Assembly (NCBI RefSeq): GCF_029633865.1
Contig: NC_079212.1
Span: forward strand, 87,470,986-87,534,985
Reading direction: 5' to 3'
DNA length: 64,000 bases
Origin: Lampris incognitus
Lineage: Eukaryota > Chordata > Actinopteri > Lampriformes > Lampridae
The translations under genes and the position numbers were made by a program. The notes under the pieces are model-generated. The model searched no databases and had not been told where the DNA came from. It was given only the letters and a program-made list of their open reading frames with translations. Shown here one piece after another: positions 18,901 to 21,900 of this stretch; position 1 is the first letter of the stretch, and each line of letters begins with the position of its first letter.

Positions 18901-21900
18901 CTAGAGGACTTTTTGTCAACCTTTCATGTTTGAAATCCTGCCGGGGGGGGGGGGGAATGTTATGTATGCACACATCGACAGTGCTGCATTTGATTTGGTG
19001 CTGTTCTATTGTGCTGGGATCGATTGGTGGAGCCTGCGGGCTCTGGGTTGTTTGATTGGGTCTGCCTTTGATGCTGTGTCAGTCTAAATAAAGAATGCCA
19101 CGGAGAGGTTGTGTCGAGCGACAGCGCTGTGTCCTGACGTGATTTCTAAATACAATAGGTACGACATCAAGTTTGATGCATGCAGACTGTACGATATATT
19201 TTTCCACTGTCTCTTTATTGAATAAAAGAGTGTAAACTACTAATAAAACACGTTAATCCCCTAGCTAACGGGTCTGACCCTTTAGCCGAGCGGTTAGCAA
19301 TGTCGCCTTGTGGTGCAGTACATCCGTATCGAATCCCGCACCGGGCAAGAAAATAACCGGTTACATTGGTGGCAGCGGTGGGATCCGGAAGTGCGCAGAT
19401 TCTCAGAAGTTTCTTCGGAGCGCGGGAATAACAAAGCGCGAGGGCGCGCTTCCGGGATAGGGTGGCTACTGTAAACTACTAATAAGGCCCGTTAGCTACG
19501 GGTCCGACCCTTTAGCCGCGCGGTTAGTGATGTCGCCTTGTGGTGCAGTACACTCGTATCGAATCCCGCACCGGGCAAGAAAATAACCGGTTACAAGAGT
19601 ATTACAATAACAAACATTCGACAAACACTGAGACAAAAACAACATATTAAGGCATCATTATAAAGTAAGGATAGTATAGTAGGATTCCATTGTCAGTACG
19701 ACATTACAATCCATAGGTTATCAAGACGTACGGTAAATGTTACATAAATAAATAAAAAAGACAATAAAATAATTAAACAGAGGTAAGCATAAAATTCAAG
19801 TTTCTCCAAAAAAAAAATATTGTTGTAGCATACTAACCGTATGAGCACATGTATTATTTATAATTTGGATAGACTCAATTCTGACTTCAATCCTGAAAGG
19901 GCTCAAATGATGGGCGAGTCCCCGACGACTTTGCTTTATGGATATGGTATTTCCCCAGCAGAATTAATAAGTTTACAGTCTGCTGAGCTTTCTGGTTTTT
20001 GTTTTCCTAATGTAGTACTACATCCTTGGCGCCCAGCTTAACTGAATGACTGGTTTGAGCAATAAAATAATCCCCCTTTTTTCCCAGAATCCTGCTGTGT
20101 GCCGACATTCATAAAATAGATGTTTTATAGTGTAGCGAATTCGGGGGACAACGCAACCACAGGAACTGCCGCGGCCGAGAAGCGAACCCGTATCGCCCGC
20201 ACCGCGGGAGACATCGCTAACCGCTCGACTAAAGGATCAGACCCGCCAGCCAGCGGCCAACGTGTCTACTTATCCATGCATGTTACAGTATTTACTCCGC
20301 TGCACCTTTTAATCTTTTGTGAAACAGCTTTTTTAAACCCTATCAACGAAGCATCTTTTAACCATAATTAACTTTCTCTTGTACATCAACTTTATTACCA
20401 TGTATGGTATTGTAACCTACAGAAAGAAAGAAAAAAACCCTCACTGGCCGATCGCCAGGGGGTCGGCCCCCTTTAGTCTCGCGGTTAGCGATGTCGCCTT
20501 GTGGTGCAGTACAACTCCGGATGGAATCCCGCAGAGGGCGGAAATATGCTCGGTTACATTGGTGGCAGCGGTGGGGTGCGGAAGTGTCCGAAAGCGTGCA
20601 GATCCTCAGAAGTCTCTTCGGAGCGCGGGAATAAAGAAAGCGCTTCCCGGAAGCGCGAGGATGTAACCTACTGTAAACTACAAAAAGACTCACTGGCCGA
20701 TTGCCAGGCGGGTGAGGTTGGCCCTCATTAGTCGAGCGGTTAGCGATGTCGTCTCGTGGTGCAGCACAACCAACGATCGAATCCCGCAGCGGGCGGTTAT
20801 TTGCTCAGTTACAGTATTTCTAACCTGGCTACAGGAGGAAAAACACTGTGTCCACATCCACCAGGTCTTTCTTCTGAACTACACGTTCTCCCCTTTTATC
20901 ACCTCTCCCCATCATTTACTTCTTTTGTCTCTTTTTCGGTCCATCACCTCTCCCTCCCTATCAGTCTCTGTTTTATTTGTGCTCTCAGGCGTAAGATGCC
21001 TTTTTTCACAGAACACCTCCACCTCTGCATGCATGCGGACTAGGCCGACAACCCGTTATACTGACGCTCACTTTCATCTCTGGGTTCTTTCCTGCAGATG
21101 GACCCTGTCCAGAAGGCTGTCATGAGCCACACGTTTGGACCTCCGGTGGTGAAGACAAAGCGGCCAATCATTTCCTGCAACGTTTGTCAAATACGCTTCA
21201 ACTCAGAGGTATGAATGTCGATGATCACGAGACACAGAAGACTCAGGATACAGATGGTGCCACGGAGGAGTCTGTTTATTAATATCCTTTAATTCAGCTG
21301 ATTAACTAGAGAATGCACGCCTGGGAAATGAGCTGGGTTGCATCAGCATTAAAACGGAGATGGTTCCATATTGTTGATCCTGTGAGGTACCCATGAGGAG
21401 CAGATTTCTGTACCAGCGCTTCGGTTACATCAAACCATGACCTAAACCATTGGTGGGCAATCTTATCCAGAAAGGGCCTGTGTGGGTGAAGGTTTTTGTT
21501 TCAACTAAGCAGTTACACACCTGATCCCACTAATCAACCAGTAGAGTCTTTGCTGGCAAACTTGATTAGGAGACACGGGTGTGTAATTGCTTGGTTGGGA
21601 CAAAAACCTTCACCCACACTGGCCCTTTCTGGATAAGACTGCCCAACCCTGACCTAAATGTACAATAACATATCGCTGCTGATTGCACTCCTGGTGCAAG
21701 TGAGAACGTGATCAGCAGTTTGTCAGCTCCGTTTTTAGCCCTTGGAGAGCGGACGGATGGGGAAGGGGTGGGAAAGTAGAGGTAAACACTCAGAGGAAAG
21801 CCTCCCTCACTTAACTTACACTTACTTTACTGTTGCTGTCCAGCAACTGGCACCTTCCGAGGAGGGTTAAATGGAGGATTTGAGCTGTCAGAGGCCATCT

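Follow-up and report, generated by a model that had tools for sequence, protein, structure and literature searches.

The analysed window is a stretch of 64,000 nucleotides from Lampris incognitus (NC_079212.1, positions 87,470,986 to 87,534,985), in which we examined a protein-coding gene, two large retroelements and several short LTR-bearing insertions. The gene, GPR84, consists of one uninterrupted 421-codon open frame (46225-47490). Its protein is nearest to those of Centroberyx (78%) and Polymixia (76%) among the matches listed (best 120 of 569), and a tree of 25 chosen rows, in which carp, catfish and sturgeon were left out, placed it in neither the percomorphs nor the salmon-pike-smelt group, the deep forks being weakly supported. 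The two large insertions (~9103-13523 and 14680-19157) are Gypsy-like elements with long open frames and LTR pairs that are ~99% and ~97% alike, respectively. The primer binding site (PBS) of the former presumably fits tRNA-Trp, and that of the latter begins TTGGCGACGAGG; because both PBSs differ from that of the miniature elements nearby, we rejected the two Gypsy-like elements as their autonomous partner. The latter element ends 73 bp upstream of the first miniature element, hereafter element A (19231-19595). A second complete copy of the same kind, element B (20411-20813), has a 148-bp 5′ LTR (20411-20558), a 113-bp interior with the same PBS core (20559-20671) and a 142-bp 3′ LTR (20672-20813), all on the forward strand, and is flanked by its own 4-bp duplication, GTAT, at 20407-20410 and 20814-20817. 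On the reverse strand lie two solo LTRs that belong to a sister family, which we call the S family: one of 157 bp (20131-20287), whose flanks ATAG and GTAT form no matching duplication, and one of 158 bp (40981-41138) with ATAT on both sides.

Element A belongs to a multicopy family of miniature LTR retroelements (TRIMs) with a tRNA-like promoter in their repeats. Its total length of 365 bp, which leaves no room for genes, is made up of a 135-bp 5′ LTR (19231-19365), a 104-bp interior (19366-19469) and a 126-bp 3′ LTR (19470-19595), both LTRs reading TGTAA...TTACA on the forward strand, and it is bordered by an exact AGAG duplication (19227-19230 on the left and 19596-19599 on the right). These features had been reported in a preliminary description of the locus, and all of them were confirmed on re-measuring, as was the 18-nt match to tRNA-Leu placed as a PBS, TGGTGGCAGCGGTGGGAT (19367-19384, forward strand), which ends in CCA and lies one base inside of the 5′ LTR. 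Two other features held in part. The interior does have the purine-rich stretch claimed for its end, GGGATAGGG (19454-19462, forward strand; mostly GGGAGAGGG in other copies), but 7 nt separate it from the 3′ LTR. The A-box and B-box ascribed to each LTR are likewise of unequal quality: the 5′ LTR has an 11/11 A-box, TAGCCGAGCGG (19283-19293), whose start is 43 nt from that of the B-box-like GTATCGAATCC (19326-19336), but the A-box of the 3′ LTR, TAGCCGCGCGG (19513-19523), reaches 10/11, and the B-box-like motif, which is repeated in the 3′ LTR (19556-19566), agrees with GGTTCGANTCC at 9/11 positions in both; all four lie on the forward strand. The LTR pair differs at 9 aligned positions and 9 gap positions, and its K2P of 0.076 is the highest among the 32 two-LTR loci measured.

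The PBS core, TTGGTGGCAGCGGTGGG, has two matches in the window when up to 3 mismatches are allowed, both of them exact and one in each element, against an expectation of 0.18 per window, although 2 of 100 shuffles also gave two. For the assignment of the PBS we used what we take to be the tRNA-Leu sequence and matched it to the host genome, where one place agreed at 96% over 82 nt. Two further places matched only the 3′ half of this tRNA, at 100%: C1:12041160-12041204 (45 nt; tRNA nt 38-82) and C16:10378496-10378535 (40 nt; tRNA nt 43-82).

We searched the 1.48-Gb assembly with a two-LTR query and scored 40 of 3256 loose candidates. The 48 matches listed fall in 39 loci, which together with the window make up the 40 best-matching loci, all of one type (A-type). 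The preliminary description had called for a genome-wide search for copies in the order LTR, PBS, short interior, LTR, and such copies were indeed found: every one of the 40 loci has two or more LTRs around common interiors, and exact 4-bp duplications flank 25 of them, compared with 20 of 2005 shifted 4-mer controls. Three of the 15 loci without an exact duplication could not be judged, since L040 is cut off, L023 has partial end LTRs and the array of L042 continues to the left. The boxes and the LTR ends occur together in the 40 loci and not as separate insertions. Because the query itself had two LTRs and only its best matches are considered here, this set gives no measure of how common solo LTRs or decayed copies are. 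Some copies form tandem arrays of LTRs and interiors with at least three complete LTRs (L014, L015, L034, L039, L042 with three and L045 with five), and the arrays L034 and L045 are each flanked by one exact 4-bp duplication; L023 and L040 each contain two complete LTRs plus further partial ones. Of 20 stretches of 10 kb sampled at round-number coordinates, with 195,667 readable bases in all, 4 contained clear LTR matches, which scales up to ~30,000 insertions. The sample being very small, the Poisson range spans about 8,000-77,000. Adjoining one TRIM copy, on the reverse strand of L079 (1401-1489), we observed a match to the type-P1 twister ribozyme model with 39.1 bits and an E-value of 3.2e-5, which falls below the gathering score of 67.2. 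A scan of viral contigs for two PBS motifs and the A-box motif gave no matches.

The promoter boxes differ between subfamilies in their state of preservation. The A-box TRGYNNAGNGG is complete (11/11) in 79 of the 88 complete LTRs of the 40 A-type loci, and the spacing between the starts of the A-box and the B-box is 43 or 44 in 80 of the 88. The usual A-type B-box, GTATCGAATCC (72/88 LTRs), has 9/11 matches, both mismatches falling within GGTT. Accordingly, GGTTC is missing from the A-type, which mostly has GTATC in its place, whereas it is present in the L078 array and in the S-type LTRs examined. In L078, GGTTCGAATCC occurs in 4 of 5 LTRs and both boxes are perfect in 2 of 5, and in ten other B-type loci GGATCGAATCC is the commonest form (8/20 LTRs). 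The median K2P between paired LTRs is 0.032 in the A-type (32 two-LTR loci) versus 0.136 in the B-type (13 pairs from 11 of 12 loci, including a pair labelled L071b that has an A-type B-box). Exact duplications remain in 4 of the 13 older B-type pairs, three of the 13 being located inside or beside other copies. Judging by how closely each form resembles the canonical box and by how far the LTRs have diverged, we infer an order of B-box forms from older to younger subfamilies, in which the age order is not clean: the L078 pairs, with K2P of 0.061 and 0.111, are not the oldest, and L073 has GGATCGAATCC yet a K2P of only 0.031. Runs of four T on the sense strand, which could stop Pol III, number 1 in the 40 loci versus 25 in mononucleotide shuffles, and there are 86 runs of four A. 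Beyond the last LTR, a T4 run follows after 10-189 nt in 20 of the 40 loci, and none lies within the examined flank of the other 20. Because the copies share ancestry, the T4 count is suggestive and does not constitute independent evidence.

This B-box series could also be explained if the LTR element is real but its A- and B-boxes are relics, the young subfamily having abandoned Pol III for Pol II or for read-through from neighbouring promoters. The apparent replacement of GGTTCGAATCC by GGATCGAATCC and then by GTATCGAATCC while median divergence drops from 0.136 to 0.032 would suit such a loss, as would the lack of a preserved tRNA fold; against it speak an A-box that is still perfect in most A-type LTRs, the preserved spacing and the near-absence of sense-strand T4 runs, and the series is disturbed by the very loci, L073 and L078, that break the age order. 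We consider this explanation possible, though rather unlikely, and favour LTRs whose boxes are still used as a Pol III promoter.

It is far less probable that the boxes and the PBS are chance likenesses in an ordinary TRIM without any ancestry in a small-RNA gene. A perfect A-box together with an equally good B-box at 30-60 nt was found in none of 5000 mononucleotide-shuffled LTRs, the A-box alone being present in 13 of 5000, and no part of the LTR is better conserved between subfamilies than the stretch with the boxes, the A-box region ranking first in a comparison of 18 hand-picked diverged LTRs. What speaks for chance is the lack of a recognizable tRNA. The comparison with a tRNA covariance model suggested in the preliminary description was negative, without a match at E up to 5 for window positions 19000-21000, for L078 and for ten other loci, and folds of four LTR stretches were no better than shuffles. 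Since neither an Rfam tRNA match nor an ARAGORN gene (bacterial setting) was found and the folds were no better than those of shuffles, a functional tRNA within the LTR was rejected. We also aligned five LTRs with seven tRNA sequences. In 20 of the 35 comparisons, more than 5 of 500 shuffles scored as well; in the other 15, at most 5 of 500 did, and none did for both S-type LTRs with tRNA-Asp or for one L078 LTR with tRNA-Leu. The best isotype varies from one LTR to another, so that alignment to these seven tRNAs, only one of which was matched to the host, did not single out a tRNA ancestor. Least credible of all is a tRNA-derived SINE, or two neighbouring SINE copies, mistaken for an LTR element, an identity we rejected: the tRNA-like boxes, the shortness and the lack of room for genes would suit it, but the LTRs around common interiors with exact 4-bp duplications, the PBS directly inside the 5′ LTR, the solo LTRs and the tandem arrays with shared LTRs would not.

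The interior of the TRIM may hold a second trace of its primer tRNA. The segment AGTCTCTTCGGAG is identical to nt 43-55 of tRNA-Leu, in the variable arm, in the sense direction, and thus to part of the same tRNA that the PBS targets. It occurs in 47 of 64 interiors (40/48 A-type and 7/16 B-type, three A-type interiors of unusual length having been dropped), and element A has it with one change at 19408-19420 on the sense strand. When the L010 interior, excluding the PBS part, was compared with tRNA-Leu, none of 2000 shuffled interiors, but 2 of 2000 shuffled tRNAs, reached its local alignment score. As this apparent echo of the variable arm was noticed after the fact, we treat it as a lead. 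The stretch after the PBS could also pair with the stretch before the purine tract, and in all but one (L074) of 18 interiors this stem was stronger than shuffled arms are on average. Covariation was not found in it: own arms gave a mean of -21.6 versus -21.4 for arms swapped between copies, and since own arms pair no better than swapped ones, the interior stem has no support from covariation.

We also searched the genome for the S family, using the 158-bp solo LTR as the query, and scored 40 of 2826 candidates. The 41 matches listed comprise 40 full-length LTRs and one partial LTR, which accompanies the copy at C14:47326437-47326593 as its second. By this listing, an S-type LTR stands alone at 39 of the 40 scored places, where "solo" is provisional as the reach of the search around each candidate is unstated. 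The random sample contained one more S-type solo LTR (L054), flanked on either side by GTAT. The only two-LTR S copy seen, L080 (C14:47326200-47326605), has an interior of ~117 bp, a run of 12 purines that ends 3 nt before the 3′ LTR, and a 3′ LTR without its middle part; its flanks, GTAC and GTAT, are not an exact duplication. Its PBS, TGGTGTCAGAAGTGGGAT, fits what we take to be tRNA-Leu(CAA), and from this sequence the sister family appears to use another tRNA-Leu as its primer.

We observed TG...CA LTRs, 4-bp duplications, a tRNA-Leu PBS, conserved boxes, solo LTRs and copies that are dispersed and in part tandem. Taken together, we regard element A, with a probability of roughly 90%, as an old and probably immobile copy of a Helenus-type TRIM of ~365-375 bp, whose transposition depended on enzymes supplied in trans by an autonomous LTR retrotransposon. 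That mobilizer was probably a Gypsy element, by analogy with the animal families described in PMC10886601. The boxes lead us to infer that the LTRs are used by Pol III, which would initiate in the 5′ LTR, ~10-20 nt upstream of the A-box. Its transcript would extend over the whole element and terminate in the flank, a read-through made possible by the near-absence of T4 stops on the sense strand. Minus-strand synthesis would then be primed by tRNA-Leu, and the strong-stop DNA would be transferred to the 3′ LTR; as a result of this jump, the read-through tail would remain uncopied and a poly(A) site would be unneeded. Finally, a borrowed integrase would insert the product with a 4-bp duplication. 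The LTR anatomy, the Pol III boxes and the T4 counts examined here gave nothing in favour of the combined transcription by Pol II and Pol III that had been entertained for this element. A more speculative scheme, to which we give little credence, is that the amplifying lineage drifts away from the canonical Pol III promoter, that the imitation of the variable arm in the interior could help to capture or unfold the primer tRNA-Leu, and that the S family switched, as it appears, to another tRNA-Leu isoacceptor.

Among known systems, Cassandra is a plant TRIM with 5S rRNA in its LTRs, and the Lampris element resembles it in having a Pol III-type promoter of a small-RNA gene within TRIM LTRs. The 5S identity itself was rejected, as no 5S rRNA match was found in the window (at the gathering score or E up to 2) or in 19000-21000 (E up to 5). 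Unlike Cassandra, whose transcripts end inside the 3′ LTR according to PMC10886601, the Lampris element has nearly no T4 stop inside. It shares boxes A and B, shortness and the lack of coding capacity with SINE2, the tRNA-derived SINEs, but differs from them by its LTRs, PBS and 4-bp duplications.

The closest counterpart is Helenus/TRIMp3, a TRIM with tRNA-derived LTRs that contain A and B boxes (Kojima 2024, PMC10886601). The idea of an animal TRIM with a tRNA-type promoter, analogous to Cassandra, is borne out structurally in 40 loci, but it is not new, the anatomy being that of Helenus. The same paper calls Helenus the "twin brother" of Cassandra, leaves its Pol III transcription putative, and proposes that it arose from a SINE inserting into an LTR, which comes close to the SINE converted into an LTR element considered in the preliminary description (PMC10886601). 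It also reports 4-bp duplications for animal families, tRNA-Leu among the vertebrate primers, lengths of 311-1263 bp, solo LTRs for fungal families and tandem arrays for LTR-11_DR of zebrafish (PMC10886601). The Lampris element agrees with this account as a short two-LTR TRIM with an A-box in the LTR, a PBS for the 3′ end of tRNA-Leu, 4-bp duplications, a length in the published range, solo LTRs and arrays. Its membership in Helenus is set by this described anatomy and not by sequence identity to LTR-11_DR or another consensus. With respect to the Helenus PPT, the purine tract here, GGGAGAGGG in the A-type, is 7 nt off the 3′ LTR. Another difference is in the B-box, whose GGTTC is called conserved in the paper (PMC10886601) but is lacking in the young subfamily here. 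Searches of open-licence PubMed Central listed no second publication on Helenus. Since the kind of element was already described in 2024, the value of the present case is one of extension and not of discovery. The groups nearest to the window's GPR84, Centroberyx and Polymixia, are absent from Table 1 of PMC10886601, as the host itself apparently is. The range of tRNA-promoter TRIMs is extended to a teleost with its nearest kin outside that list. To the new host, the sequences add a sister family with an apparently different tRNA-Leu primer, a B-box that older and younger subfamilies have in different form, and a candidate match to the tRNA-Leu variable arm in the interior. One genome thereby offers many datable copies, which apparently represent two primer types and come in several promoter states, making the use of Pol III, and how much promoter loss is tolerable, testable within a single species.
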